From: Pseudomonadota bacterium
GTDB taxonomy: Bacteria; Desulfobacterota; Desulfobacteria; Desulfobacterales; RPRI01
DNA: 35,206 bases
Reading direction: 5' to 3'
NCBI GenBank assembly: GCA_018817425.1
Contig: JAHITX010000098.1
Coordinates: forward strand, 1-35,206
Made by a program: the position numbers and the translations under genes. The notes below the pieces were generated by a model that ran no database searches, had not been told where the DNA came from, and worked only from the letters and a program-made list of their open reading frames with translations. Positions 10,486 through 27,745 of this stretch are shown one piece after another (positions within the stretch are counted from its first letter, which is position 1; each line of letters starts with the position of its first letter).

Positions 10486-10872
10486 GTGTTTTCTCAGATG
10501 CTGCAAGCCGGCCTATATGATTTTTTCTTTGTTTTTATTTTTTTTATAGTTTCCCTTGCGTTGCCGGTTGTTATGGTAACGTTAAATTCCTTGATAGGTC
10601 CTAACTATCGTGGGAAAAGGAGAGGGGAGACTTATGAAAGCGGTGTGGCTCCAATCAGAACTGCCTGGATCCAATTCGGAGCATCCTATTATCTTTTCGC
10701 CCTGATTTTTTTAGCCTTTGATGTGGACGTACTTTATCTCTTTCCGGTGCTCATGGTTTATGGTCAGGAAGGATCTGGTTATGGCGAATTGATTGAACTC
10801 TTTATCTTCCTCTTTATCATTTCTCTGGCGATTGTATATGCCTGGCGGAAAGGAGTATTTGAATGGAGATAG
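10486..10872 (+). CDS. nuoA: NADH-quinone oxidoreductase subunit A
   Basis: A 128-residue membrane subunit of complex I, first of the operon. Three membrane helices are visible. The conserved core runs [15 protein letters not shown] and then [18 protein letters not shown], whose acidic residues lie near the quinone channel in characterised complexes. The start is GTG at 10486 with GGGAG nine bases upstream; an ATG four codons later is possible. The stop overlaps nuoB by 10 bases, implying coupled translation. Confidence 0.95.
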
Positions 10873-11414
10873 AGAAAAGTCCATATTGTGCAACTACAAT
10901 GGCTACAGATGGAGCGCCTGCAGTACTGGGATTTACTTCTGTTCAGGATTTATTGAATCTGACAAGGGTTAATTCTTTATGGCCCATTACTTTTGGAATT
11001 GCATGCTGTGCTATAGAGATGATGGCCGCAGGAATGGCCCGCTTCGATCTTGACAGGTTCGGGACTATTTTTAGAGCAAGTCCGCGACAATCCGATGTTA
11101 TGGTTGTTGCCGGAACAATATCAAAAAAACTTGTTCCGACTATAAAAAATCTTTATGAACTGATGCCCGGTCCAAAATGGGTTATGGCGATGGGCAATTG
11201 CGCTATTTCCGGCGGGCCGTTTGCTTATGAAGGGCAGTACGCAATAATTAACGGAACGGACAAGATAATTCCCGTTGATGTTTATATTCCCGGATGTCCC
11301 CCACGCCCGGAGGCTTTTATCCAGGGACTTCTTAAATTACAAACCTTGATTAGTAAAGGAACAATGGATGCTAACCGAAGGGCAGAAAAAGCTGCTAGAA
11401 GAGCTGCAAAATAG
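10863..11414 (+). CDS. nuoB: NADH-quinone oxidoreductase subunit B
   Basis: A 183-residue peripheral subunit holding the terminal cluster N2, which passes electrons to quinone. The four ligands are visible: the adjacent C48 and C49 in [12 protein letters not shown]113 in [10 protein letters not shown], and C145 in [10 protein letters not shown]. The start overlaps the end of nuoA. The last about 15 residues are basic and alanine-rich ([12 protein letters not shown]) and overlap the nuoC start by 47 bases, which is longer than usual. Confidence 0.96.
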
Positions 11415-11862
11415 TCTGGCTAAATCAGTACCTGAAGCAGATATCAGCCAGAGTGATTATGCCCGTACAGGCTATCACCTGGAATTTAAGTCGAATCAGG
11501 TTGGTATGCGCAGGGTAGCTTCGGCTATGAAAAACAGGCGATTTAACCTGGAAACCGTCACAGCGGTTGATTTCATAGATTCATTTGAGATCGTTTACCT
11601 TTATTTTGATTATAATCAGGAAAATATCCGTGTAATGGTTCGGATACGTGTGCCCAAAGATGAACCGCCTTTTACTATTTCGGCGATTTATACGGGTGCT
11701 ATTTGGCTGGAACGGGAGGTTTACGACTTTTTTGGTATCCAATTTAAAGAACACCCGGATTTAAGGCGTATACTCAATCCCGATGATGCAGATTATTTCC
11801 CATTACTTAAGAACTTCGGTAAGACTACTATAACCGATGAAATAGATGATATGACATGTTGA
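11368..11862 (+). CDS. nuoC: NADH-quinone oxidoreductase subunit C
   Basis: A 164-residue separate NuoC (not fused to NuoD as in E. coli). The family signature is present: [20 protein letters not shown], then [14 protein letters not shown]. It forms part of the Q-module next to NuoB and NuoD. The ATG at 11368 lies inside nuoB, with AAAGGA six to seven bases upstream, giving a 47-bp overlap in another frame. No good later start was seen, because the helical segment before the core would be lost. It overlaps nuoD by 7 bases. Confidence 0.93.
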
Positions 11863-12983
11863 CCATCAAAACCGTAGACGACATAAATATTAATGAGCGG
11901 CTTTATCAGCTCAATCTAGGCCCTCAGCATCCGAGTACCCACGGAGTTTTGCATTTTTTGCTGACACTTGACGGCGAAGTTGTAGTCAAAGCTGAAATGC
12001 TTATCGGCTATACGCATCGGGGCCATGAGAAAATGGCTGAAAACCGAATCTATGAACAGTTTTATCCAAATTCTGCACGAATGGATTATCTTTCCGGCAT
12101 GATTTTCAATACCGGATATTGTGAAGCTGTTGAAAAGCTTTGTGGTATTGAGGTTCCAAAAAGAGCGCAGTATATCAGGGTTATTACTTCAGAGCTTAAT
12201 CGTGTCGCCAGCCACCTTCTTGGAGTTATGGATTTTGTTATGGGCTTAGGGGCATATACACCTTTTCTTTATGGGTGGGATGACCGTGAACAAATACTTG
12301 ATCTGCTTGAGACGATTACCGGATCACGTCTTACCTATAATTATAGCCGGTTTGGCGGAGTTCGTTTGGATATCGATCAGGCTTTTTGCGAAGGTGCCCG
12401 GCGTTTTATAGATCGGCTCAGAGGGCGGTTCAAACTCTACAATGATTTGATAACAGGGAACATAATATTTATAAAACGTACCACCGGAGTTGGAGTTATC
12501 AGCAAGGAAGTGGCACTTGAATATGGTGTTACCGGTCCGGCATTACGCGGCTCCGGTGTAAGCTATGATGTGCGTAAAAGCGAACCCTATTCATCATATC
12601 AGGATTTCAAGTTTGAGATTCCGACAAGGGAAGAAGGCGATTGTATGGCCCGCTATCTGGTACGGATGGCCGAAATGGAGCAAAGTTTAAACATTATTGA
12701 ACAGGCTTTGGATAACTTGCCTGAAGGCCCGATTCGTTCAGACGTAGCCCGCTTTGTAACACCGCCTGTCAAAGATTGTTATTATTCCTTTGAAAGTGCC
12801 CGTGGCGCTGTTGGTTTTTATATAGTCAGTGATGGTACGCGTATTCCATATCGTCTGAAAGTGCGCGCGCCTTCTTTTTCTAACCTATTTGTTATGAGTA
12901 AGATTGTTCCTGGACATTTTGTTGCCGATCTTATTGCTATTTTTGGCAGTATCGATGTAACGGTTCCGGAGATTGACCGGTGA
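11856..12983 (+). CDS. nuoD: NADH-quinone oxidoreductase subunit D
   Basis: A 375-residue quinone-site subunit related to the large subunit of NiFe hydrogenases. The N-terminal [16 protein letters not shown] loop, the [12 protein letters not shown] segment and the [10 protein letters not shown] region are typical. The paired CxxC nickel ligands of hydrogenases are absent, so this is a true complex I subunit and not a group 4 hydrogenase. It ends [12 protein letters not shown] and overlaps nuoH by four bases (GTGA). Confidence 0.96.
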
Positions 12984-13981
12984 ATATGACACAACTTCCT
13001 ATTATTAAAGATATTTATGGATTTTTAGGCCCGGATATGATGGCGGGTGTTGTAGGGCTTCTGCTTGTTTTAATGTTTGTACCTTTAAATTCCGCTTTCC
13101 TTGTATACGTCGAGAGAAAGGTTGCGGGACATATACAACTTCGTCCCGGTCCTATGGAAGTCGGCCCTCATGGAATTTTACAGAGCCTTATTGATGCAGT
13201 AAAATTGATGTGCAAAGAAATGATAACCCCTGATGCAGCAGACAAACCTCTTTTCTGGCTGGCTCCCTGCATAGCTGTAATTCCGGCTATTGTTTGTTTT
13301 GTTGTGATTCCTTTCAGCTCGGTAATGCAGATCAGAGAGATGAATGTGGGTATTTTATTGATCTTTGCATTTTCAAGTATTTCAGGTTTATCATTATTGA
13401 TGGCCGGATGGGCTTCAAACAATAAATATTCATTGATTGCCGCTGTCCGGGCTGTTGCTCAGAGCATAGCTTATGAAATACCGCTTCTGCTTTCCGCAAT
13501 GTCGGTTATTCTCATGAGCAATTCTTTTAAGATGAGTGAAATTGTTGCAGCTCAATCACCATATTTTTGGAATGTTATGGTGCAACCGGTTGCTGCTGTT
13601 ATTTTTATTATCTGTTCAACGGCAGAAACGAACCGGGCTCCATTTGACCTTGTTGAAGCCGAATCCGAACTGGTTTCAGGATTTCATACCGAATATACCG
13701 GTATGAGAGATGCTCTGTTTTTCATGGCGGAATATACAGCCATGTTTATAGCTTCTTCCATGGCCGTAGTTCTGTTTTTTGGCGGTTGGCATGGGCCTTT
13801 TTTCTCCGGAATTTTCTGGTTTGTTCTAAAGGCTTACTTACTTGTTTTTGTTACCGTCTGGATAAGATGGACTTTCCCAAGGCTTCGTTTTGATCAGCTT
13901 ATGAATTTTGCATGGAAAGTGCTTATTCCGATAGCTCTTGTAAACCTTTTGGTAACGGCTATTTTTATTAAGGTGTTTTAA
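12980..13981 (+). CDS. nuoH: NADH-quinone oxidoreductase subunit H
   Basis: A 333-residue membrane subunit with about eight helices that forms much of the quinone chamber and joins the peripheral arm to the membrane arm. Conserved segments are [20 protein letters not shown], the [15 protein letters not shown] helix, and [20 protein letters not shown] with its acidic cluster, then [18 protein letters not shown]. The start is GTG at 12980, overlapping the nuoD stop; an ATG two codons later is an alternative. Confidence 0.96.
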
Positions 13982-14439
13982 TGAATACTCCGTATGGCTT
14001 CAAACAGTACGTTAAAGAAATATATACAGGATCAAAGAGCCTCCTCATAGGTATGAGGGTAACTTTTCAACATCTCTTTAAGCCTATTGTTACGGTTCAG
14101 TATCCACGTCAAAAACCTGTAATGACTCCTCACTTCAGGGGACATATCGAAGCCATTATGTTTGATGACAACAAGAGCCACCACTGTGTTGCCTGCGGGT
14201 TATGTGCGCGAACCTGTCCTTCGCATGTTATTAAAGTTCAGGGGGAAAAAACAAAGGCTAGTGATAAAAAATACGGAAAAAAGTATTTTATTGATTTTAC
14301 AAAGTGTAGTCTTTGCGGTTTGTGTGTTGATGTTTGTCCTGAAAAGACGCTTAAATTTTCCAATGAATATGAATTGGCCTTTTTATCTCGCTGGGATGGG
14401 GTTATTGATATAATGCAACGGCTTGAGGAAAGTAAATGA
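13981..14439 (+). CDS. nuoI: NADH-quinone oxidoreductase subunit I
   Basis: A 152-residue ferredoxin-like subunit with two [4Fe-4S] clusters (N6a and N6b). The ligands are C69, C72, C75, C79 (CVACGLCARTCP) and C109, C112, C115, C119 (CSLCGLCVDVCP). An amphipathic N-terminus anchors it to the membrane arm. It relays electrons to NuoB. The ATG overlaps the nuoH stop by one base and the end overlaps nuoJ by four. With NuoE, F and G absent, this is the likely first fixed docking point for electrons. Confidence 0.95.
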   Translation: MNTPYGFKQYVKEIYTGSKSLLIGMRVTFQHLFKPIVTVQYPRQKPVMTPHFRGHIEAIMFDDNKSHHCVACGLCARTCPSHVIKVQGEKTKASDKKYGKKYFIDFTKCSLCGLCVDVCPEKTLKFSNEYELAFLSRWDGVIDIMQRLEESK

Positions 14440-14972
14440 CAACCACGATTTCAGATCTGATACCGCCGATTATGGTAGCGCAGGCTGCCTTTGCGCTGAT
14501 GATTGTTTTCACGCTATCAGGTGCATTTTTAGCGGTAATACCGAAAAAAATAGTACATAATATTTTGGGCCTTTGTCTTGCCATGTTTGGAATAACAGGG
14601 GTTTATCTTTATCTTGGCAGCCAATTCGTAGCTATGATGCAATTGCTTATATATGTCGGTGCTATCTGCATGACTTATATATTTGCGATAATGCTTTCAC
14701 CTCCGCTTGAAAAAGAATTGCCAAAAAGGAATAAATTAAAAGTTATAACTTCGGCGGCAGTAAGTTCGGTTGTTTTTATCGTTATGGTCAAGATGATTAT
14801 GAGCCTTAAATTTGAACCACTGACAGATATAACCCGTGACTGGTCCATCAAAGCTCTTGGGCATGAACTGCTTGGCCGTTATTTTCTTGTTTTCGAATTG
14901 ATTTCTCTGCTTTTGGCCATTGCAATTATAGGTTCTATTATGGTCGCAAGTTTTGTCCGGAAAAAGGATTAA
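14436..14972 (+). CDS. nuoJ: NADH-quinone oxidoreductase subunit J
   Basis: A 178-residue membrane protein with five hydrophobic segments. The third contains the conserved LLIYVGAICMTYIFAIML stretch, corresponding to the helix with a pi-bulge that couples quinone chemistry to pumping in complex I. The ATGA overlap with nuoI and the three-base gap to nuoK show tight operon packing. Confidence 0.93.
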   Translation: MTTTISDLIPPIMVAQAAFALMIVFTLSGAFLAVIPKKIVHNILGLCLAMFGITGVYLYLGSQFVAMMQLLIYVGAICMTYIFAIMLSPPLEKELPKRNKLKVITSAAVSSVVFIVMVKMIMSLKFEPLTDITRDWSIKALGHELLGRYFLVFELISLLLAIAIIGSIMVASFVRKKD

Positions 14973-14975
14973 CAC

Positions 14976-15284
14976 ATGGAATGTCTTACAACATATTTAA
15001 TTCTTGGCGCTTTGTTATTTTGTATCGGAATATACGGAATATTACAGCATTCCACTCTTATAGGTATGCTTATCGCAACCGAACTGATGCTAAACGGTGC
15101 TGCCATTAATTTCATGGCCTTTAATATGTTTTTATCAAAAAACCCGGCATCAGGTCAGATATTTACTTTGTTTATCATGGGTGTTGCGGCTGCTGAGGCT
15201 GCCGTTGCTCTGAGTATTATTATTACCGTCTATCGTAATTTTAAGACAATTAATGCTGATAGTGTCAGCGAACTGAAAGGTTAG
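14976..15284 (+). CDS. nuoK: NADH-quinone oxidoreductase subunit K
   Basis: A 102-residue subunit with three helices, related to MrpC. The second helix has the conserved glutamate (LIGMLIATELMLNGAAINFM) and the third has the second one (AAAEAAVALSIII); both lie on the proton path in known structures. It is followed by a 14-bp gap and the first antiporter-type subunit. Confidence 0.95.
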   Translation: MECLTTYLILGALLFCIGIYGILQHSTLIGMLIATELMLNGAAINFMAFNMFLSKNPASGQIFTLFIMGVAAAEAAVALSIIITVYRNFKTINADSVSELKG

Positions 15285-15298
15285 ATACTTAAAGCCAA

Positions 15299-16825
15299 AT
15301 GGAAACCATTATCACTATAAAGCCGGTTGTTGCAGTACTGATATCTCTTTTTGCCTCACTGCTGATTATGGCTACTCCCAAAAAACCAAATCTTAGAGAG
15401 ACCTGGTCTGTTTTAGGCGCAGTGGCTACTTTTCTTACAATCCTTTCCATGATGCCACTGATACTGTCGGGGAAAGCACTTGAATATACGCCCTTTGTTA
15501 TATTGCCTGGCATTTCGCTAAAATTCAGGGTTGATGCTCTTGGGCTTATTTTTGGAATAATAGCCTCCTTTCTCTGGATTCTGGTTACGTTTTATAATAT
15601 CGGTTATATGCGTTCTTTAAAGGAACATGCGCAAACCAGATATTATACCTGTTTTGCTTTAGCTATATTCGGGGCTATAGGTGTTGCCTTTTCGGGTAAT
15701 TTGTTTACTTTGTATTTATTTTATGAGCTTATCACAATATTTACATATCCGCTGGTTTCCCACCATCAGGATGAAGAATCCTATGAGGGTGCCAGAAAAT
15801 ATATGGTATATCTTACCGGTACGGCAAAGTCATTTTTCCTTCCGGCAATTGTTTTAACATATATTTTAGCAGGCACTTTAGATTTTGCCCCATCCGGTAT
15901 AATGCACGGAATATTTCCGGAAACGGCAAATCCTACTCTTGTTACAATTACATATATTCTGTACCTTGCCGGATTTGCAAAAGCTGCGCTTATGCCTTTT
16001 CATAACTGGTTGCCTTCGGCGATGGTTGCGCCTACACCTGTTAGTGCTTTGCTCCATGCAGTGGCCGTTGTTAAAGCTGGAGTTTTTTGTACAAGCAGGG
16101 TTATGCTTTCGGTTTTTGGTGTTGAACTGATGAATTCCTTAAATTTAGGTATTCCTACTGCCTATCTGGCATCATTTACCATTCTGATGGCTTCAATTAT
16201 TGCTCTTACCAAAGATGATTTAAAAGCAAGGCTTGCCTATTCTACAGTAAGTCAGCTTTCATATGTTATTTTAGGTGTTGCTCTTCTTACTCCAAGTGGA
16301 GTTACAGGAGGGCTGATTCATATTGCAAACCATGCTTTTTCCAAGATAACGCTTTTTATGTGTGCAGGATCTATTTATGTATCTCTTCACACTAAGAAAA
16401 TCAGCGAAATGGGCGGTATCGCAAAACAGATGCCATTTACTATAGCAGCATTCAGTATTGCAGCGTTAAGCATGATCGGAGTTCCTCTTGTTTGCGGATT
16501 TGTGACTAAGTGGTATTTGGCAATTGGAACAATGCAGGCGCATAATACTATTCTTCTGGTAGTCCTGCTGGCCAGTACTATTTTAAATACTGCTTATTTC
16601 TTTCCTGTGATTATAAAAACTATATTTGGAAAGCCAAGGGAAGGTGATCCGGGAGCCCTTCATAGCGGGCGTCATGAAGCACCTGCAGTTATGGTGATTC
16701 CTTTGTTACTAACAGCTACAGCTTCCGTGCTTATGGGTCTTTATCCGGACTTTTTTATGAATATTGTAAAGTCGTTTGATCCGGATTACTTAATGAATAC
16801 AATCAAGGCGGTTTTAACATTATGA
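15299..16825 (+). CDS. Extra antiporter-type subunit (MrpD/NuoM-like)
   Basis: A 508-residue protein with about 14 membrane helices from the proton-conducting antiporter family. Visible marks are the glutamate in LYLFYELITIFTYPL, the lysine in YLTGTAKSFFLPAIV, the conserved MPFHNWLPSAMVAPTPVSAL loop with its broken helix, and the following lysine in HAVAVVKAGVFCTSRV. It lacks the long lateral C-terminal helix of NuoL. Since a NuoL-like subunit, NuoM and NuoN all follow, this is a fourth antiporter module. It is closer in feel to MrpD of cation/proton antiporters, so proton or sodium transport are both possible. It overlaps the next small gene by four bases. Confidence 0.88.
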   Translation: METIITIKPVVAVLISLFASLLIMATPKKPNLRETWSVLGAVATFLTILSMMPLILSGKALEYTPFVILPGISLKFRVDALGLIFGIIASFLWILVTFYNIGYMRSLKEHAQTRYYTCFALAIFGAIGVAFSGNLFTLYLFYELITIFTYPLVSHHQDEESYEGARKYMVYLTGTAKSFFLPAIVLTYILAGTLDFAPSGIMHGIFPETANPTLVTITYILYLAGFAKAALMPFHNWLPSAMVAPTPVSALLHAVAVVKAGVFCTSRVMLSVFGVELMNSLNLGIPTAYLASFTILMASIIALTKDDLKARLAYSTVSQLSYVILGVALLTPSGVTGGLIHIANHAFSKITLFMCAGSIYVSLHTKKISEMGGIAKQMPFTIAAFSIAALSMIGVPLVCGFVTKWYLAIGTMQAHNTILLVVLLASTILNTAYFFPVIIKTIFGKPREGDPGALHSGRHEAPAVMVIPLLLTATASVLMGLYPDFFMNIVKSFDPDYLMNTIKAVLTL

Positions 16826-17124
16826 ATTTTGCTGAACCAATACAATATTTAAGAGACAATCTTAAAAAAGTAAAGATTGCTATGTGGATATGTATAGCAG
16901 GGTCTCTTGTGTTTGATGTTTGTATTAAACTTTTTGGCGCGCATCATGGTGCTGAACATGGAGAGCATCATGTTCTTACATTGGCGGAAAAGATTTACAT
17001 TTGGGCAGAAACGGTTCCATGCTTCTGGTCTATTTTCGGTCTGATATGCACGATTCTACTTATTCGGGTTATGAAAGGGTTATCGCATACTGTGTTGATG
17101 AGAAAAGAGGGTTACTATGAATAA
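16822..17124 (+). CDS. Small two-helix membrane protein of the complex I operon
   Basis: A 100-residue protein not belonging to any standard complex I subunit I know. It has two hydrophobic helices (about 20-37 and 62-83) separated by a histidine-rich loop, AHHGAEHGEHH. It overlaps both neighbours (ATGA with the upstream antiporter subunit, 8 bases with the NuoL-like gene), which argues that it is a real, co-translated component. A guess is an accessory subunit that bridges the extra antiporter module, or a histidine loop that binds metal; neither is shown by sequence. Confidence 0.75.
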   Translation: MNFAEPIQYLRDNLKKVKIAMWICIAGSLVFDVCIKLFGAHHGAEHGEHHVLTLAEKIYIWAETVPCFWSIFGLICTILLIRVMKGLSHTVLMRKEGYYE

Positions 17125-18886
17125 TTTCATACATCCGGCGATATTTTTTATTTTTGGTGCATTGCTTATCCCGCTGATTCCGAAAAAGTTTAAAAAAATA
17201 TTTTTGCTCGGATTGCCGCTTATTGCATTTTATTGTGTACTTACCATGAAAACTGGTGTGTATGGTGCTTATAATTACTTGGACTTTAACATAGTATTTG
17301 GACGTGTTGATAGATTAAGTATCGTTTTTGCACATGTTTTTACACTAATGTCTTTTATAGGTGTACTTTTCGGCATTCATGTCGAAGATGATTCACAACA
17401 TATAGCTTCCTATTTTTATGTAGGCGGTTCATTAGGGGTTGTTTTTGCAGGAGATTATCTTACGGTATTTATCTTCTGGGAAATGATGGCGCTGGCATCA
17501 ACATTTTTAATCTGGTTCAGACGTGAACCGGCATCATTAAAAGCAGGTCAACGTTATCTTCTTATGCATATATTTGGCGGGCTTCTTTTGCTCGGAGGTA
17601 TTTTCCTGCATTACCAAAACACGGGAACTATAGCATTTGTCCAGCTTTTCCCGGAAAATGCCGGAATTGCCGAATACCTGATTCTTGCCGGATTTGCACT
17701 AAATGCTGCTGTATTTCCTCTGCACGCCTGGCTTCCGGATGCGTATCCTGAGGCAACAGTTACAGGCGCAGTATTTATGTGTGCTTTTACTACCAAAACA
17801 GCAGTATATGTTTTAGCCCGTGGTTTTCAGGGTTTTGAAGTTCTGGCAATTATGGGTACGGTAATGACTATTTATGGAGTTTGTTACGCTACCATTGAAA
17901 ACGATATGCGGCGCATTCTTTCTTACCATATTATAAGTCAGGTAGGCTACATGGTTGCCGGCGTGGGGATAGGTGGCGCACTTGCAATAAATGGTGCTTG
18001 CGCTCATGCTTATGCCCATATCCTTTATAAAGCACTGCTTTTTATGGGGGCAGGTTCTGTTTTAATGATGACCGGAACATCCAAATTAAATGAATTGGGT
18101 GGCCTTTATAAGTATATGCCTTTAACAATGATTTTTTATATAATTGGCGGCATTTCAATTTCCGGTTTTCCTTTTTTCAGCGGATTTGTTAGTAAATCAA
18201 TGGTAATTGCAGGCGCTGCAGAAGGTGGCCACCAGTATTTGATGATGTTGATGTTGTTGGCAGCTGTAGGTACATTTCTTTCTGTTGGATTAAAGCTTCC
18301 ATATTTTGCTTTTTTTGGAAAGGACTGTGGCATTAAGCCGAAAGAACCGCCTAAAAATATGCTTTGGGCGATGGGTATTGCAGCATTTCTATGTTTTATA
18401 ATCGGCGTTTATCCGAAAGCATTATATGTATTGTTACCTTACAAAGAAGCAGCGCTTGAATTTCATCCTTATAATATGGCGCATATGTCGGAAACTTTAC
18501 AGATCCTGCTTTGTACAGGTCTTGGATTTTTCTTACTGCTTAAGAGATTACAACCTGAAGACAAAATCAATCTCGATTTTGACTGGTTCTATCGCAATAT
18601 CTTAAATGGATTTATATGGTTTGACCAAAATATAATCCAGAAAATTGATTCTGTTTGGGGTAATGTTTGGAAGAATGTTGGAATTAAAGTATTGATGATG
18701 TCTATAGCAAGATTTTTTGCATGGTTTGACCGTTGGGCGATAGATGGTGTGGTTGATAATGTAGCATATGGAACCAGATGGATTGGAGATAAAGCTCGAA
18801 AAATTCAAACGGGAAATCTGCAAAACTATCTGGCCTTAGCTATTTTAATGATTTTTGTTATTGTCGGTGTTCACTGGTTTTTATAA
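17117..18886 (+). CDS. nuoL: NuoL-like antiporter subunit
   Basis: A 589-residue membrane protein of the same antiporter family. Key positions are the glutamate in VFIFWEMMALASTFLIW, the lysine after ASLKAGQRYLLMHIFGG, and AAVFPLHAWLPDAYPEATVT with the lysine in FTTKTAVYVLARG. After the core it has about 110 extra residues: a long amphipathic stretch (IWFDQNIIQKIDSVWGNVWK, then DRWAIDGVVDNVAYGTRWIG) and a last helix introduced by IQTGNLQNYLALAI. That tail is the NuoL-type lateral helix and anchor, so I call it NuoL-like, although the core also resembles MrpD. It is followed by a 108-bp gap before nuoM. Confidence 0.8.
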   Translation: MNNFIHPAIFFIFGALLIPLIPKKFKKIFLLGLPLIAFYCVLTMKTGVYGAYNYLDFNIVFGRVDRLSIVFAHVFTLMSFIGVLFGIHVEDDSQHIASYFYVGGSLGVVFAGDYLTVFIFWEMMALASTFLIWFRREPASLKAGQRYLLMHIFGGLLLLGGIFLHYQNTGTIAFVQLFPENAGIAEYLILAGFALNAAVFPLHAWLPDAYPEATVTGAVFMCAFTTKTAVYVLARGFQGFEVLAIMGTVMTIYGVCYATIENDMRRILSYHIISQVGYMVAGVGIGGALAINGACAHAYAHILYKALLFMGAGSVLMMTGTSKLNELGGLYKYMPLTMIFYIIGGISISGFPFFSGFVSKSMVIAGAAEGGHQYLMMLMLLAAVGTFLSVGLKLPYFAFFGKDCGIKPKEPPKNMLWAMGIAAFLCFIIGVYPKALYVLLPYKEAALEFHPYNMAHMSETLQILLCTGLGFFLLLKRLQPEDKINLDFDWFYRNILNGFIWFDQNIIQKIDSVWGNVWKNVGIKVLMMSIARFFAWFDRWAIDGVVDNVAYGTRWIGDKARKIQTGNLQNYLALAILMIFVIVGVHWFL

Positions 18887-18994: not shown

Positions 18995-20497
18995 ATGGAT
19001 TTTTTAATTCCCAATCAGCTTAATTATCCCATTTTGAGCGTTTTAATCTTTGCGCCCCTGGCCGGAGCTTTTGTTCTTTTCATGATCCGGAATGAGACTG
19101 TTGCAAGAGTATGGACTTTATTTGTGAGTCTGGCTGTTTTTGCGCTTTCACTGCCTCTTTATTTTAATTTTGATCAAACTACTCCTAAATATCAATTTGG
19201 AGAGCATTTTTCTTGGATTCCTGCATTTGATATAAATTATACTCTTGGAATAGACGGGATTAGTCTGCTTCTTGTGCTTTTGAGTACAATGCTTATACCA
19301 ATATGTGTTTTGGCATCCTGGAAATATATTGACAAGAGGGTTAAGGAATTTCATTTCTGTCTTCTTCTTATGGGCAGCGCATGTGTGGGAATTTTTACAT
19401 CTCTGGATTTTGTGCTGTTTTATATTTTCTGGGAAGCAATGCTGATTCCAATGTATTTGCTAATAGCTGTCTGGGGTGGCACGGAAAAAGTTTATGCATC
19501 AATCAAGTTTTTTATTTACACAATGGTTGGAAGTGTATTTCTTTTAGTCGCAATGATTGCCCTATATCTTAAAACCGGCACTTTTTCTATTCCAACTCTA
19601 ATGACAATGACTCAGACTTTTTCTTTTAGTTTTCAATTCTGGGTATTTCTTGCATTTGGGATTGCTTTTGCCATTAAAGTTCCGATGGCTCCGTTTCATA
19701 CATGGTTACCTGCAGCGCATGTTCAGGCACCAACGGCAGGAAGTGTTTTGCTTGCAAGTATATTGCTGAAAATGGGAACGTATGGATTTGTTAGATTTTG
19801 TCTGCCCATAACGCCCAATGCGAGTTTGCATTTTGCTCCATACATTCTTGTTATGTCCGTTATATCTATTGTCTATGGCGGATATGTAGCTCTTGGGCAA
19901 ACCGATATGAAAAAGCTTATTGCTTATTCTAGTGTTGCTCATATGGGTTTTGTTACACTTGGTACATTTTTCTTTAATAAGTATGGTCTTGAAGGGGCCA
20001 TATTGCAGATGATAAATCATGGAATAACAACCGGTGCCCTCTTTTTATGTGTAGGTATTATTTATGAAAGGAGTCACAGCCGTTTGATAGCAGATAATGC
20101 CGGAATTGCAAAAATAATGCCGATTTATATTGGATTTTTTGGTTTTTTCTGTCTTTCTTCAATGGCGTTTCCCGGTACAAACAGCTTCGTTGGTGAGTTG
20201 TTGATTTTGATAGGAGCTTTTGCGGATTATAAAATAATCGGTGCTTTGAGTATTCCGGGAGTTGTACTTGCCGCGGCGTATATGCTGCATTTGCTTCAGA
20301 GAGTTGCTTGGGCTGGAAAACCGGATTCACATCATTTTTTTGATTTAAAATTAAGAGAGATTATTTACTTAGTTCCTCTTGTAATTTTGGTTTTATGGAT
20401 TGGTTTTTCTCCTGGCCCATTTTTGGATGTTATTCATGTGAGTGTTGGTCATCTTTTGGAACAGATACATATGGCAGGCGCTGTACCTTTACATTAA
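18995..20497 (+). CDS. nuoM: NADH-quinone oxidoreductase subunit M
   Basis: A 500-residue antiporter-type subunit with about 14 helices. Signature segments are YTLGIDGISLLLVLLSTML near the N-terminus, the glutamate in FYIFWEAMLIPMYLLIAVWG, and AIKVPMAPFHTWLPAAHVQA followed by LLASILLKMGTYGFVRF with its lysine. The loop FPGTNSFVGELLIL is typical of NuoM. It pumps one proton per cycle in the accepted model. It is separated by 108 bp from the NuoL-like gene and 124 bp from nuoN. Confidence 0.94.
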   Translation: MDFLIPNQLNYPILSVLIFAPLAGAFVLFMIRNETVARVWTLFVSLAVFALSLPLYFNFDQTTPKYQFGEHFSWIPAFDINYTLGIDGISLLLVLLSTMLIPICVLASWKYIDKRVKEFHFCLLLMGSACVGIFTSLDFVLFYIFWEAMLIPMYLLIAVWGGTEKVYASIKFFIYTMVGSVFLLVAMIALYLKTGTFSIPTLMTMTQTFSFSFQFWVFLAFGIAFAIKVPMAPFHTWLPAAHVQAPTAGSVLLASILLKMGTYGFVRFCLPITPNASLHFAPYILVMSVISIVYGGYVALGQTDMKKLIAYSSVAHMGFVTLGTFFFNKYGLEGAILQMINHGITTGALFLCVGIIYERSHSRLIADNAGIAKIMPIYIGFFGFFCLSSMAFPGTNSFVGELLILIGAFADYKIIGALSIPGVVLAAAYMLHLLQRVAWAGKPDSHHFFDLKLREIIYLVPLVILVLWIGFSPGPFLDVIHVSVGHLLEQIHMAGAVPLH

Positions 20498-20621: not shown

Positions 20622-22040
20622 ATGGATGTCGTATTATTTCTGCCGGAAACCTATCTGCTCTTGATGGCACTGGTTTTTTTCTGCCAATCTTTATGGAAAT
20701 CATCTGCTCAATTGAATCAGGGTATAGCTGTATTTCTTTCCGGCATCGGAGTAATCATTAATCTTTATACTTTTAATATGACCGGAGATCTTTTCCATCT
20801 ATCTTACCGTGTTGATCTTTTTTCACAAACATTTAAGTTTCTAATAAGCGTTGGGCTGTTTTTAATTACAATACTTTGTATGAAGAATAAAAGTATAGAA
20901 GAAAAGCTACAGCCTGAGTTTTTTATGTTTCTTTGCATAAGTGCATTAGGTCTTATGCTTATGGTAAGCAGTGTTGAGCTTATAACAATATTTATTGCAA
21001 TGGAATTATCTTCATACTCACTTTATATCCTAATACCGATAAGTAAGGATATAAGTCATGGAAGAATAGAGGCTGCTGTTAAATATATTCTTTTCGGAGC
21101 AGCTGCTACAGCTATTATGCTTTTTGGTATGAGTTATATCTTCGGTATTACACAGACTACATACCTGTCAGAAATTATGTTAAAAATGCCGGAAATAATT
21201 GGGCAGCCGATTGGTGTAGTTGGTCTTCTTTTGATTCTTTGCGGATTTTTCTACAAACTATCAGTTGTTCCGTTTCATTTTTGGACTCCTGATATATATG
21301 AAGGCACTGCAAATGAGACAGTTACATTTATTGCAACTATGCCTAAGCTGGCAGCAGCAGCATTACTTATAAGGATTGTAAGTCTTGCCGCTCCCGGATC
21401 GGTTGATCTGGTTCAGGTTTTGGTTGTTATTGCTGCTGTTTCAATGACTTTCGGAAATATTGCAGCGCTTGTACAAAAAGATCTCAAGCGTCTTCTTGCT
21501 TATTCCAGCATTGCTCATGCAGGTTATATACTGCTTGGTATTTTAACTCTAAAAGTCGATGGTTATTCAGCAGTTGTTTTTCATATTACAGCATATATGC
21601 TTATGAATCTTGCATGCTTTCTTGTTATAACCAATGTTTCAAAGGAAGGGAAAAATGTTACTATAAGCGATCTTTCCGGTCTTCATAAGCGTTCTCCATT
21701 GCTGGCCTTTACTTTAGCAGTTGGTTTTTTTGGTCTTGCCGGGATTCCACCTACGGCAGGATTTACAGGAAAATTCTTCCTTTTTATTGCTGCTTTAAAT
21801 GAAGGGCACCTTGCATTGATCATAATAGCTGCTGTAAATACGGCTATTTCTATTTATTATTATCTTAATGTTGTTCGTGCGGCATATGGTCAGGATCCTG
21901 ATGGATTACCGGCAGTGCAAGTAAGTTTTTCACATAGATTATTAAATTACAGTTTAATAATTGCTATATTAATTTTGGGTACTATACCTTCAAGATTTAT
22001 TGAATTGGCGCGAACAGCCTGTGAAACGATAAAATTGTAA
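20622..22040 (+). CDS. nuoN: NADH-quinone oxidoreductase subunit N
   Basis: A 472-residue antiporter-type subunit, next to NuoJ/K in known complexes. Marks are ELITIFIAMELSSYSLYILI, the lysine in YKLSVVPFHFWTPDIYEG, the following TVTFIATMPKLAAAALLIR, and GLAGIPPTAGFTGKFFLF, a NuoN hallmark. AAGGAA lies upstream of the ATG at 20622. The gap before it (20498-20621) is AT-rich and shows no clear promoter or terminator. Fifteen bases separate it from the truncated NuoF-like gene. Confidence 0.94.
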   Translation: MDVVLFLPETYLLLMALVFFCQSLWKSSAQLNQGIAVFLSGIGVIINLYTFNMTGDLFHLSYRVDLFSQTFKFLISVGLFLITILCMKNKSIEEKLQPEFFMFLCISALGLMLMVSSVELITIFIAMELSSYSLYILIPISKDISHGRIEAAVKYILFGAAATAIMLFGMSYIFGITQTTYLSEIMLKMPEIIGQPIGVVGLLLILCGFFYKLSVVPFHFWTPDIYEGTANETVTFIATMPKLAAAALLIRIVSLAAPGSVDLVQVLVVIAAVSMTFGNIAALVQKDLKRLLAYSSIAHAGYILLGILTLKVDGYSAVVFHITAYMLMNLACFLVITNVSKEGKNVTISDLSGLHKRSPLLAFTLAVGFFGLAGIPPTAGFTGKFFLFIAALNEGHLALIIIAAVNTAISIYYYLNVVRAAYGQDPDGLPAVQVSFSHRLLNYSLIIAILILGTIPSRFIELARTACETIKL

Positions 22041-22054
22041 ACGGAGTAAAATAA

Positions 22055-22783
22055 ATGTCGGCAGAAGCTACAAATTGCATAGAAAAACCACAGGCCCATG
22101 AAATGCCGGGTATTGCTGGTAATCAGCCAAGAATTACGGTTTGCGGAGTTGGGAATTCAGCATCTTCCTGTGGGGGGGGTGCTATATATAAGGGTTTAAT
22201 AGCAGAATCTAAACGTCTCAATATTCCAGTTGTTATAGAGCCTGCAAAATATGGTTGTAGTGGTAAATGTAATAATGGTACATATATCAGTTTGCCACAT
22301 CTTGGACTTTTCTATCACAAAGTAAAAGAAGCCCATATTCCAATAATTATAAAAGAAACAATAGGAAATAATAAAATATTATTTCCTATATTATATGTCA
22401 ACCCTCTTCAGAGCATACGTGAGGATCTGATATGGGATAAAACAAGCTGTTGTATAATGACCATGAATCCTTCTGTTTGCATGGTTGAAATTGCAGAGTA
22501 TCTTATAAAATTTCATGCTAACGAGTCTTGTGGTAAATGTGTTCCATGCCGTTTGGGAATTCAGCGGCTTATAGAACTTATTTCTGGTGTTGCAAATGGA
22601 AAAGCACCTGATAATGCAGTTGTTCAGATGGAGACTATGATTCAACTCACAGATCAGGCAGCATATTGCGATTTTGCCGGAAAAGTATCGAAAATAATTA
22701 TGGCCATTGTTTCAAATTTTAAGGATGAATTTGAAAAACATATAAAAGAGAAAAAATGCCGGTTTGGAGTTTGTAGTTTATAA
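22055..22783 (+). CDS. NuoE/NuoF-like iron-sulfur protein without the FMN/NADH domain
   Basis: A 242-residue soluble protein. Residues about 25-105 look like a thioredoxin-fold [2Fe-2S] domain (cysteines 30, 39, 68 and 72), as in NuoE or the start of HndC-type subunits. Residues about 128-240 match the end of NuoF: ESCGKCVPCRLG with C159, C162, C165 and, 39 residues on, C205, the ligands of cluster N3, followed by FKDEFEKHIKEKKC. The roughly 200-residue flavin and NADH-binding domain that normally lies between them is absent (no GRGGAGFPTG-like loop). It can carry electrons but not oxidise NADH. It directly follows nuoN, so it probably serves this complex. Confidence 0.82.
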   Translation: MSAEATNCIEKPQAHEMPGIAGNQPRITVCGVGNSASSCGGGAIYKGLIAESKRLNIPVVIEPAKYGCSGKCNNGTYISLPHLGLFYHKVKEAHIPIIIKETIGNNKILFPILYVNPLQSIREDLIWDKTSCCIMTMNPSVCMVEIAEYLIKFHANESCGKCVPCRLGIQRLIELISGVANGKAPDNAVVQMETMIQLTDQAAYCDFAGKVSKIIMAIVSNFKDEFEKHIKEKKCRFGVCSL

Positions 22784-22850: not shown

Positions 22851-23036
22851 ATGTTTAAAATTGATGTGAATCCGGATAAATGCGTAGGAGACGAAGAATG
22901 TATAGAGGTCTGTCCGGTAGATGTATTTCAACTGAAAAATGGTAAATCTGTTCCTGTAAGGTCAGATGATTGTCTAGGTTGCGAAAGTTGTGTTCAGGTT
23001 TGTGATTTTGTGGCTATTACTATTACTGAGGTATAA
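22851..23036 (+). CDS. Two-cluster ferredoxin with an Asp ligand position
   Basis: A 61-residue ferredoxin. The second motif, CLGCESCVQVCD, is a full CxxCxxCxxxC set. The first, CVGDEECIEVCP, has C11, D14, C17 and C21, so aspartate replaces the second cysteine. This CxxDxxC arrangement is known from Pyrococcus furiosus ferredoxin and Desulfovibrio africanus ferredoxin III, whose cluster can switch between [3Fe-4S] and [4Fe-4S]. It lies 67 bp after the NuoF-like gene, last in the operon. It may be the mobile electron donor to, or acceptor from, this complex I; that role is inferred from position. Confidence 0.85.
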   Translation: MFKIDVNPDKCVGDEECIEVCPVDVFQLKNGKSVPVRSDDCLGCESCVQVCDFVAITITEV

Positions 23037-23617: not shown

Positions 23618-26600
23618 ATGTCTAATGTATCTCTAACTATTAATGGTCAAACAGTTATTACGGAATCCGAAAATACACTGCTGCAAGCAGCAAGGCAGGA
23701 AGGTATATTTATACCAACCCTTTGTCATCATCCCCTTTTAAAACCTGAAGAATCTTGCAGGATATGTGTGGTTGAAGTCAAGGGAGAATCCAGGCCGGTA
23801 ACATCCTGTTCTTTCAAGGTTGCTGAAGGGATGGAAGTTCAAACTGATACATCAAAAATCAGGGAATTTCGTAAAAATATACTTTCTTTACTACTTGAAC
23901 AGCATTATGGAGATTGTTTAGCGCCATGTCATATGACTTGTCCCGGACATCTTGATATCCAGGGTTATGTTGCTCATATTGAAAGAGGCAATCCTATAGA
24001 AGCTCTTAGGCTTATAAAAGAAAAGACTCCTTTTGCTGCATCACTTGGAAGGGTATGTCCGCATCCATGTGAAAATGAATGCCGACGCACACGTGTTGAA
24101 AAAGCAATAAACATAAAAGATTTGAAAAGATATGCAGCTGATTATGCTGCCGAGCGCGGAATCAGAGTAACACCTGCACCACCTCCAGATACAGGCAAAA
24201 AGGTTGCAATAATAGGAGGCGGTCCTGCAGGGCTTGCCGCAGCATATTATCTGCGTCTTAAAGGCCACGGTGCTACCATATATGACGCCATGCCCAAGCT
24301 TGGTGGTATGTTAAGATATGGTATTCCCGAATATCGTCTTCCAAAGGCTGTGCTTGATCAGGAGATACAGGAGATTTTAGATCTTGGCGTAGCGGTTAAT
24401 ATAAACAAGAAATTCGGAAAAGATTTTACTCTGGCATCACTAAAAAGCGAGGGATATGATGCTATATTTTTAGCCATAGGAGCATGGAATTCTTATAAAC
24501 TTGGAATTTCAGGAGAAGAGATGCGGGGAGTCATGTCCGCCATCGAATTTCTGATTCGAACAGCATCCGGAGATCCGCCACCAGTTGGTAAAAAAGTGGT
24601 AGTAATCGGCAATGGGAATACTGGCATGGATGCCGCACGAAGCTGCCTTCGCATGGGAGCAGAAGAAGTTATAATGCTTTATCGCCGGACAAAAGCAGAA
24701 ATGCCTGCTAACCCGCAGGAGATCCATGATGCTGAAGAAGAAGGCGTAAAGATACATATACTGGCTACTCCGACAAGAATTATTTCCAAAGACGGAGCTT
24801 TTTCCGGTGTTGAATATCTTAAAAATGAACTAAAAGCAGCAGACAGCAGCGGTCGCCCGAGTCCTGTTCCTATTGAAGGTTCCGAAACAATTCTAGAAGC
24901 CGATCAGGCTATTATATCCATCGGACAATTTTCCGATGTACAATTTTTGAAAGAAGATACCGAACTTAAAGAAGCCTCGTTCACGAGAAAAGGAATACCA
25001 GAAACGGATACAAGCACCCTTCAATCATGTATCCCGTACCTGTTTTTAGGTGGAGATCTTTTAAGAGGTCCAAGAACTGTTATTCAGGCAAGTGCTGACG
25101 GTCGAGAGGCCGCCTTGTCTATCCACAGCTATCTGACAGATGGAGCTGTTATATGTGATGTACAACCTTTTAATATAGTGAAAGGGAAATTGAGTGAGGT
25201 AGATCCGGTTAATTTTGAAAATATTAAAAGCCGTCCGCGTAACGAAACCCCGATTCTTCCGGTTTCTCAAAGAGTTAAAAGCTTTGAAGAAGCTGAACTG
25301 GTGTTATCCGAGACTCAGGCCAAAGAAGAAGCTGAAAGATGTCTTTCCTGCGGCTGCCTGGACAGTTTTGATTGTCTTCTTAGAAAATATGCAACAATTT
25401 ATGATGTTGATGCAAGCAAACTAGCTTTCTGGAAGAGCCCCAAATATAAAATAGAAAATTCACATCCATTTATAACTGTTGATCCGAACAAGTGCATCGT
25501 ATGCCGCAGATGTGCTGTAGGATGTGATAACTACCAGATTCAGTATGCTATAAAAGTAGATGAGGTTTCCGGTGAAGACCGAACCGGTCCGCCACAATAT
25601 GCTCCAAGTATTAATGATAAGTGTGTTGACTGCGGTTTATGCGTAGGCAATTGTCCTACCGGCGCACTCCAGGAAAAGACAAAAGGCAAACCCGGTCCTT
25701 TTGAGCTTAATAAAATTCGAACAACATGCACATATTGTGGTGTCGGATGTCAGATATATCTTGCAACATCAGGAAACCAGATAGTAAATGTTCAAGGTGT
25801 TCCGGGAGTTGCGCCTAATTACGGGCATCTTTGTGTAAAAGGAAGATTTGCATTCGATTTTGTTAATAGTCCTGAGAGGTTGCGCAAACCTTTGATAAAA
25901 CAAGATGATGGCAGCTTCAAGGAAGTAAGTTGGGAAGAAGCATTAGATCTTGTTGTACGCAGGTTTGCAGCAATAAGAGATGAATACGGGCCTGATACAT
26001 TGGCCGCTCTTACTTCTGCAAGGATCACAAATGAAGAGAATTATGTGGTGCAAAAACTTGCCAGAGCCGTATTTAAAACTAATAATGTAGATCATTGCGC
26101 GCGTCTCTGACATTCCTCTACAGTGGCCGGTCTGGCCGCCGCATTTGGAAGCGGAGCAATGACAAATACTATTGGAGATCTTGATGAAGCGGATGTAATT
26201 TTACTTACAGGCTCAAATACTACCGAAAATCATCCTGTAATATCTTCTTATATCAAGAGAGCAATAAAATTTAAAGGAACAAAACTGATTGTTGTAGATC
26301 CAAGAAGAATTAATATGACCTTGTTTTCAAAAAACTGGCTCAGGCCAAATCTTGGAACTGATGTTGCCTGGATTAATGGCATGATTCATGTAATTATTAA
26401 GGAAGAACTTTTTGATAAAGATTTTGTTCAAAACCGTACAACCGGTTTTGAAGAATTAAAAAAGGCGGCAGAAAAATATACACCTGAATATGTTGAAACA
26501 ATAACAGGCATTCTTTCGAAAAGTCTTATTGAAGCAGCAAGGATGTACGCCGGAGCAAAGGCGGGTGCCATTGTTTACTGCATGGGCATCACCCAGCACA

Positions 26601-27745
26601 CAACAGGAACAGACAATGTAAAGTCTTTGGCAAATCTTTCCATGCTTTGCGGCAATCTTGGAATCAGAGGTGGAGGCGTAAATCCACTGCGGGGCCAGAA
26701 TAATGTTCAGGGTGCATGTGATATGGGAGGGCTTCCTGATGTATTTTCCGGTTATCAGAAAGTTATTGATCCTGTTGCAAGAGAAAAGATGGAAGCTGCC
26801 TGGGGTGTTTCGGGCCTTTCGGATAAGCCGGGTTTAAAGGCTACCGAAATGATACCGAAAGCCCATGATAAAAGTTTAAGAGCGCTTTATATTGTAGGCG
26901 AAAATCCGCTTATCTCCGATCCTGATATTAATCATGCCGAAAAATGCATAAAGAATCTCGATTTTCTTGTTGTGCAGGATATTTTTATGACAGAAACGGC
27001 AAAGCTTGCAGATGTGATTTTGCCTTCAGCCTGTTTTGCAGAAAAGGAAGGAACGTTTTCAAATACCGAGCGCAGAGTTCAGCGGGTGAGAAAAGCAGTT
27101 GAGCCGCCGGGAGAAGCAAAAGAAGACTGGAAAATTACCTGTGAAATTGCAAACCGCATGGGATATCCAATGGCATATGAAAGCAGTGAAGCCATACTGG
27201 AGGAAATTTCCAAAGTAACTCCTGCTTATGCCGGTATAAATTATGACCGGATAGATCAGGAAGGCATTCACTGGCCATGTCCGAGTTTAGATCATCCGGG
27301 TACGCCTATTTTACATACGCAGGCTTTTCCCATAGGAAAAGGTGTATTTCATGCTATTGAATATATACCTCCGGCTGAACAAACTGATAACGAATATCCA
27401 TTTTATCTGACAACAGGCCGAGTTATTCATCAATACCATACCGGCACCATGACAATGAAATCGGATGGAATAAATGAAAGGGCTCCGGAGAATTTTGTTG
27501 AGATTTCCTCTTCTGATGCAGAAAAATTCGGTTTTGAAGATGGATCAATGGCAAAAATTATGTCTAGAAGAGGAGACATTACCGCAAAAATAAAAATATC
27601 CGCAACTGCAGTTAATGGAACGGTTTTTATCCCATTTCATTTTGCAAAATCTGCCGCAAACAAATTGACAAATGCTGCCCTTGATCCTGTTTCAAAAATT
27701 CCTGAATACAAAGTCTGTGCAGTAAAGTTGTCAAAAGCAGCTTGA
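23618..27745 (+). CDS. fdhA: Selenocysteine formate dehydrogenase fused to a GltD-type flavoprotein
   Basis: A 1375-residue cytoplasmic protein (no Tat signal), provided UGA 26108-26110 is read as selenocysteine 831; both halves share one frame and join as DHCARLUHSSTVAGLA, the FdhA active site. Order of domains: [2Fe-2S] (C36, C47, C50, C64); GltD-type Fe-S helical domain (C100, C104, C108, C147, C151, C155); FAD site IIGGGPAG (198-205 region); NAD(P) site VVIGNGNTGMDAA (about 328-340) followed by LYRRTKAEMPA; two [4Fe-4S] motifs (C626-C636, C669-C679); molybdopterin domain with C704, C707, C711, C739. It likely interconverts formate and CO2, passing electrons to NAD(P) or ferredoxin. CGGAG lies 6 bases before the ATG. 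The YRR motif hints at NADP(H), as in GltD, but this is not proven. Confidence 0.9.
26123..26139 (+). promoter_or_regulatory. Bacterial SECIS element
   Basis: GUGGCC (26123-26128) pairs with GGCCGC (26134-26139), including one G-U, around the loop GGUCU (26129-26133). Exactly 18 bases separate the UGA from the loop. As I recall E. coli fdhF, its SECIS has the same GGUCU loop at the same spacing, the SelB recognition feature. This supports selenocysteine insertion and not termination. Confidence 0.88.

Follow-up and report, generated by a model that had tools for sequence, protein, structure and literature searches.

A short NuoF lacking the FMN/NADH domain as a candidate extra subunit of a complex I without NADH-oxidising module

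Complex I without its NADH module is found in many anaerobes, and how electrons are fed into it is an open question. The stretch of DNA analysed here (the window, 35,206 nucleotides; contig C98 of G000, a genome of 5.12 Mb in 147 contigs) raises this question in a specific form. Directly behind its complex I genes lies a gene encoding a 242-residue protein that resembles two separate parts of NuoF. What is this protein, does it belong to complex I, and which electron donor would it serve? The relevant features of the window are as follows:

10486..14972, + strand: nuoA, nuoB, nuoC, nuoD, nuoH, nuoI and nuoJ (nuoJ from gene order and sequence reading)
14976..15284, + strand: nuoK (from gene order and reading)
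15299..16825, + strand: antiporter-type subunit 1, 508 residues (PF00361)
16822..17124, + strand: 100-residue protein between two NuoL-like genes, without Pfam match; a similar short protein is found in G435, G398 and G470
17117..18886, + strand: antiporter-type subunit 2, 589 residues (PF00361)
18995..20497, + strand: antiporter-type subunit 3, NuoM-like, 500 residues (name from gene order and reading)
20622..22040, + strand: nuoN, 472 residues (PF00361; name from gene order and reading)
22055..22783, + strand: short flavin-less NuoF, 242 residues; thioredoxin-like (Trx-like) [2Fe-2S] domain at about 23-112 (C30, C39, C68, C72) joined to an N3 [4Fe-4S] domain at about 131-241 (C159, C162, C165, C205)
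22851..23036, + strand: ferredoxin, 61 residues, between the short NuoF and the formate dehydrogenase (FDH); first cluster motif CxxDxxC by reading
23618..27745, + strand: FDH, 1375 residues, with an inserted GltD-type FAD/NAD(P)H domain; a neighbour, whose ORFs 23618-26110 and 26123-27745 form one frame across a TGA
26108..26110, + strand: in-frame TGA, probable selenocysteine (DHCARL-U-HSS), with SelB in the genome
26123..26139, + strand: SECIS-like hairpin whose loop reads GGUCU; G006 and G001 have one as well

No nuoE, full-length nuoF or nuoG was found in the operon, in agreement with the first-pass annotation of this DNA, to which we add the ferredoxin gene at 22851-23036 and the FDH read through its TGA. 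Between 15299 and 22040, four antiporter-type subunits (PF00361) and the 100-residue protein replace the usual NuoL/M/N, and by similarity the same is true of f80 operons.

Domains and cysteines of the short NuoF

The short nuoF starts 14 bases behind nuoN, with a GGAG ahead of its ATG. Its N3 domain is recognised by Pfam, residues 146-229 aligning with positions 2-85 of the 85-position NADH_4Fe-4S model (PF10589) at an E-value of 2.9e-19; no other Pfam family was matched, and the same holds for the six orthologs even at E<=1. The Trx-like first domain is recognised by profile comparison only: when a profile of the six orthologs was compared with HydB of structure 7q4v, residues 23-112 matched chain residues 4-92 (i-Evalue 1.1e-4) and residues 131-241 matched chain residues 429-539. 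PF01257, the NuoE-type Pfam model, gave eight matches over the genome and none inside the window, the first domain of the short NuoF falling below that model. The spacing between the two matched stretches is 336 residues in HydB, where it accommodates the FMN, NADH and SLBB parts, versus 18 in the short NuoF. The first-pass description of a Trx-like [2Fe-2S] domain fused to the N3 tail of NuoF, with the FMN/NADH domain skipped, is thus borne out by both the PF10589 match and the 7q4v profile.

No FMN/NADH-binding domain was detected in the short NuoF by Pfam, by the 7q4v profile alignment or by an FMN-loop pattern. In its loose form, this pattern is present in five of the five long NuoFs of the genome and in none of the 26 short proteins; a stricter form caught just three of the five long ones. 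Against the NCBIfam NuoF equivalog TIGR01959, the short NuoF scores 62.3 bits, the cut-off being 558.65.

Four cysteines per cluster had been noted in the first pass, and indeed C30, C39, C68 and C72 of the first domain and C159, C162, C165 and C205 of the N3 domain are invariant across the six genus orthologs; these residues are the presumed cluster ligands. Among all 26 homologs described below, the four N3 cysteines align without exception, the first domain always holds at least four cysteines, and the first domain's final cysteine is always 86 or 87 residues from the first of the N3 domain. The first cysteine pair is CX4C in four f86 members versus CX8C in the genus.

The N-terminal Trx-like [2Fe-2S] domain followed by N3 is the order seen in HydB-type NuoFs, which occur in bifurcating hydrogenases and similar enzymes (7q4v and 8a6t among others). 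HydB continues into a C-terminal ferredoxin domain; the short NuoF stops at that point, two residues past C240, and the C-terminal 2[4Fe-4S] domain of the HydB type is absent from it. An AlphaFold model of the short NuoF alone, computed from the single sequence, was poor (mean pLDDT 48.2, pTM 0.36) and was set aside.

Three short NuoFs of f153 (G745, G674 and G763; L105, L106 and L109) have long C-terminal tails, giving totals of 547, 654 and 505 residues. By reading, the tails of L105 and L106 are acidic and of low complexity, with a Lys-rich terminal stretch, and the G745 and G674 proteins lack the last cysteine pair.

Distribution of the short family and its link to complex I

A first search of 59 related genomes found a full-length short NuoF in the window genome and in G001, G002, G003, G006 and G009 of the same genus, and in 0 of the 49 genomes from other families of the order. 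A sample of the class (389 genomes) yielded one more carrier, G246, and a sample of the phylum (395 genomes, E<=1e-32) yielded 20 carriers including the window genome; in both, at most seven candidates per genome were scored, so that remote or concealed short NuoFs may have escaped detection. The resulting 26 loci (six from the genus, G246 and 19 from the phylum) fall into families f1, f30, f80, f86, f130, f137 and f153.

The same short protein is indeed found next to nuoN in other genomes: its gene lies directly downstream of nuoN in 25 of the 26 loci. The exception is G527 (L100), where nuoE and a nuoF encoding 1036 residues stand between the two. The first-pass annotation had regarded an intact NuoF at this place in relatives as evidence against its reading; none of the 26 loci has one, the extra nuoE-nuoF pair of G527 lying ahead of the short gene. 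Its view that the protein is not a random deletion remnant also holds, given 26 genomes of seven families, a spacing of 86-87 residues between the domains and the position behind nuoN. The long NuoF of G527 is 47% identical to the NuoF of C79 in the window genome, and a full and a short NuoF thus occur within one operon.

Two trivial origins were ruled out. A recent deletion in one genome is incompatible with the short form being present in 26 loci of seven families, and an assembly artefact with the same gene order in six genus genomes (in G001 and G003, in pieces over several contigs).

In a tree of the N3 region, the 26 short NuoFs lie on one side of a branch and 18 long NuoFs on the other, with support of 100/100. 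The long set derives from 38 frames containing the N3 motif, of which 17 belonged to the short family and were already among the 26, three of long type were excluded for insufficient length or for want of the GSGG stretch, and the remaining 18 were used. This motif had missed four NuoFs of the window genome; when they were added (22 long NuoFs), the split was retained at 100/99. Both trees were computed without an E. coli-type NuoF, and in both, G246 and some f86 members were flagged for long branches. Three further short N3 frames (G212, G368 and G363) sit at contig ends, where they include or could include full-length NuoFs that have been truncated.

Six of the ten genus genomes, G000, G001, G002, G003, G006 and G009, encode the Nuo-type NuoD belonging to this operon, and precisely these six carry the short NuoF; G004, G005, G007 and G008, 85-97% complete, have neither. 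G001 and G002 contain one further NuoD-like match each. Orthologs of the window ferredoxin (62-100% identity) are confined to the same six genomes, the G003 copy being cut (67% over 39 residues), and a second ferredoxin type, 53-57% identical, is common to all ten. By arithmetic, the chance of one such six-of-ten match is 1/210, uncorrected for shared ancestry. Across the phylum sample, NuoD was detected at E<=1e-75 in 303 of the 395 genomes, among them 19 of the 20 short-NuoF carriers; in the twentieth, G527, nuoD is cut at a contig end. The short NuoF is characteristic of a less common type of complex I, roughly one-sixteenth of those sampled at E<=1e-32. At that threshold, G499 (f80, 76% complete) has NuoD and no short NuoF match. 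We took a constant genomic link to the nuo core genes as the sign of a complex I accessory protein, and the short NuoF displays it, both in its place behind nuoN (25/26) and in its presence and absence across the genus.

The genus provides a natural comparison, namely one locus with and without a block of nuo, short nuoF and ferredoxin genes. In G004, G005 and G007 (L161, L162 and L163), the FDH gene comes 15-49 bp behind thrS (measured on the longest ORFs), and nuo, short nuoF and ferredoxin genes are absent between them. In the nuo-bearing relatives G001, G002, G003, G006 and G009, thrS stands ahead of nuoA; it is not found upstream of nuoA in the window itself. thrS was identified via TIGR00418 in G004, G007 and G002, and by reading in the others. 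FDH follows the ferredoxin on the short-NuoF contig in G000, G006, G009 and G001, and on another contig in G002; the G003 contig stops inside the ferredoxin, and G008 gave no FDH match above the family cut-off. Comparing the thrS-FDH and thrS-nuo...ferredoxin-FDH arrangements delimits the gained or lost block as nuoA-N, short nuoF and the ferredoxin gene, with FDH outside. Both gain and loss of this block are compatible with the genus data. As judged from gene content, the short NuoF and the ferredoxin go with complex I, and the selenocysteine FDH is separable.

Neighbouring formate dehydrogenase and NuoG-like genes

With its single TGA read through, the window FDH matches the FDH family at 876 bits (cut-off 666.25) and has the active site DHCARL-U-H. 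The TGA followed by His, the family match and a SelB in the same genome (380.9 bits) are the features by which we defined a selenocysteine FDH. An in-frame TGA is present at the FDH active site in G000, G006, G001 and G002. A hairpin with a GGUCU loop, a loop type known from SECIS elements, is present in three loci, with z-scores of -0.81, -1.55 and 0.06; its folding energies are little better than those of shuffled sequences, it has no Rfam match, and nothing in an Rfam scan of the window reached the gathering score. Between the ferredoxin and FDH genes, four promoter-like sites were counted versus 7.5 expected, which is no evidence for promoters there.

The GltD-type domain is present in the FDHs of G000, G006 and G009 and absent from those of G001, G002 and G003. 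Paralogs of the GltD-type FDH are found in the window genome on C7, on C82 and at the end of C40. The GltD domain of the window FDH is 93% identical to that of the C7 paralog (L146:8490-12614), the catalytic part only 50%, which suggests exchange of GltD domains between FDH paralogs. A G006 paralog on C13 has Cys instead of the TGA (DHCARLCHAS).

Outside the genus, the gene behind the short nuoF varies. It encodes a NuoG/FDH-like protein in eight loci (G655, G570, G727, G546, G593, G710, G693 and G527; in two frames in G570, with a 132-residue ORF between in G727, and cut by the contig end in G527) and a GltD-NuoG fusion in four (G504, G476, G556 and G246, the last with frame breaks). Eight of the 26 loci have no FDH/NuoG-like gene beside the short NuoF (G435, G398, G470, G745, G674, G763, G520 and G733), and in two, G002 and G003, the contig ends behind it. 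On the G520 contig, a 1242-residue FDH-like frame lies about 13 kb away. None of the 12 NuoG/FDH-like and GltD-NuoG proteins was seen to have the Sec/Cys-His pair found at the active site of FDH, G246 (frame break) and G527 (contig end) being uncertain. Two of the loci, L101 and L107, score 384 and 413 bits as Fdh-alpha and 355 bits each as NuoG, below both cut-offs. The GltD-NuoG fusions of L112, L114, L115 and L082 have no visible Sec/Cys, and the L082 frame is broken; in such fusions the NAD(P)H site has possibly moved from NuoF to NuoG. When ORFs of at least 50 residues from the 20 non-genus loci were compared with the window ferredoxin by BLAST, none matched at E<=1e-4.

Electron input and alternative explanations

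On balance, we favour the view that the short NuoF is a true additional component of a complex I without NADH-oxidising module, and that it has kept the Fe-S domains of the HydB type while the FMN/NADH and SLBB parts are gone. From the patterns above we infer its assembly with complex I and its cluster binding, as well as the donor, direction and path of the electrons. Since the FMN/NADH part is missing, the short NuoF should not take hydride from NADH; without FMN, single-electron exchange would be expected. The protein would then most likely be a flavin-free Fe-S adaptor linking complex I to a carrier of single electrons such as ferredoxin, perhaps reduced by FDH. Four antiporter-type subunits would suit a large potential drop, for instance from ferredoxin to menaquinone. 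An adaptor for a non-NADH donor was also what the first-pass annotation proposed. The part of this that stands is a conserved, flavin-less NuoF tied to complex I and fit for the role; the adaptor function itself is a reading of the sequence. A conserved and dedicated Fe-S-only derivative of NuoF provides a concrete candidate for the input site, together with a set of genomes for testing it.

Either ferredoxin or the GltD-type domain of the FDH had been put forward as the donor. Within the genus, the ferredoxin of the cassette appears the better-supported of the two. The FDH/GltD link is weakened, because FDH stands directly behind thrS without complex I in three genus genomes, because the FDHs of G001, G002 and G003 have no GltD domain, and because 8 of the 26 loci have no FDH/NuoG-like neighbour. 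Three f80 carriers have neither a ferredoxin of the window type nor an FDH/NuoG-like neighbour, so another carrier may serve there. As a NuoG/FDH-like gene follows in 12 of 26 loci, a NuoG-type partner is possible outside the genus, and in other families the short NuoF may pair with it instead of with ferredoxin alone. Where a NuoG-like or GltD-NuoG protein follows, the two might form a joint flavin-less N-module, or the GltD fusions might contribute a different flavin site.

A bolder, and in our judgement doubtful, proposal is that an active selenocysteine FDH has replaced the NADH module, occupying the position of NuoG and being docked onto the core by the flavin-less NuoF. The complex, with its four antiporter-type subunits, would be an ion-pumping formate:menaquinone oxidoreductase (fed with NADPH via GltD as another option), or would make formate in reverse. 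If true, this would bridge FDH and NuoG, relatives filling the same place with NuoG/FDH-like or GltD-NuoG proteins without the catalytic residue. FDH does follow the short NuoF and ferredoxin in all four genus loci with a long enough contig (G000, G006, G009 and G001) and follows the ferredoxin in G002, a NuoG/FDH-like gene comes after the short NuoF in 12 of 26 loci, and the FDH retains the cluster cysteines common to those proteins, including the first four of the [2Fe-2S] domain. However, three genus genomes that lack this complex I still have FDH next to thrS, GltD-type FDH paralogs occur in other contexts in the same genome, and three of the four f80 carriers have no adjacent FDH/NuoG-like gene.

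It is improbable that the short NuoF is a structural plug or assembly factor capping the lost N-module site, with clusters that merely stabilise it and ferredoxin electrons passing straight into NuoI as in 11-subunit complexes. Such N-module-free 11-subunit complexes exist and ferredoxin use has been proposed for them (PMC11238625), but the cysteine pattern of the short NuoF is conserved over deep divergence.

We give still less credence to the idea that the short NuoF belongs to the FDH, or to a soluble enzyme made up of FDH and ferredoxin, and that nuo is just its genomic neighbour. HydB-type NuoFs generally partner FDHs and hydrogenases, as the names of the matched structures also indicate, and the FDH gene is two genes downstream; yet in 25 of 26 loci the short gene keeps its place behind nuoN, with a variable gene coming next, and the genomes whose FDH has no nuo beside it (G004, G005 and G007) do not carry it. 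That the protein is a functionless, degenerate remnant, as the absent FMN/NADH domain might suggest, is scarcely credible and contradicted by its conservation, with genus orthologs of 55-78% identity, open frames, invariant cysteines and homologs in six further families.

For the favoured reading, an extra complex I subunit, the closest published case is NUO-2 of Nitrospina gracilis and Kuenenia, a form of complex I in which NuoF does not bind FMN and for which exchange with ferredoxin has been proposed, in Nitrospina in the direction from quinol to ferredoxin; the Kuenenia copy was formerly annotated as a formate:quinone oxidoreductase (PMC3578206). The likeness lies in an FMN-less NuoF within a complex I variant. 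As described there, NuoF2 of NUO-2 keeps its NADH domain, has extra [4Fe-4S] clusters and is accompanied by NuoE and NuoG, whereas the short NuoF of the window lacks the FMN/NADH region entirely, and neither nuoE nor nuoG is present in its operon. Complex I without NuoEFG, with ferredoxin or a donor not known, is described for the anaerobes Desulfitobacterium (PMC11238625) and Desulfurivibrio dismutans (PMC12142623). They share with the window a core without N-module, to which the window adds a dedicated NuoF-derived candidate subunit. The FDH resembles cytoplasmic FdsABG-type FDHs in its NuoG-like N-terminal clusters (PMC11238625) and recalls the FDH beside nfnB in Seep-SRB1g (PMC10553843) in its NfnB/GltD-type association. 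It differs from both in having the GltD-type domain inside the FDH and no adjacent NuoE or full-length NuoF. Our search of the open-access literature, a scope outside which subscription papers and preprints fall, found no description of a NuoF consisting of Trx and N3 domains only. This form thus appears to be new, FMN-less NuoFs and NuoEFG-less complex I being already known.

Separate nuoE and nuoF genes were also sought in the rest of the genome; the first-pass annotation had regarded a complete and clearly co-expressed nuoEFG there as refuting its reading, and this refutation did not materialise as stated. Five full-length NuoFs (C23, C47, C138, C40 and C79) and five strong NuoEs (C79, C47, C138, C128 and C40) were found; by reading, they lie in other enzyme clusters with DsrC-like, benzoyl-CoA-reductase-like, MetF-like, old-yellow-enzyme-like and FDH genes, in which nuo core genes are absent. 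These NuoE/NuoF sets could act on complex I in trans. NuoC is represented by the window copy and by a weak match in a 506-residue protein of C60, in a hydrogenase-like cluster by reading. The DsrC-like and benzoyl-CoA-reductase-like translations, again by reading, hint at sulfate reduction or the degradation of aromatics. In the relative G001, a second complex I (L076, G001:C110) has its own NuoE and a full-length NuoF of 633 residues, and between its nuoC and nuoD lies a gene for a 271-residue protein similar to the start of a 1088-residue protein of C47.
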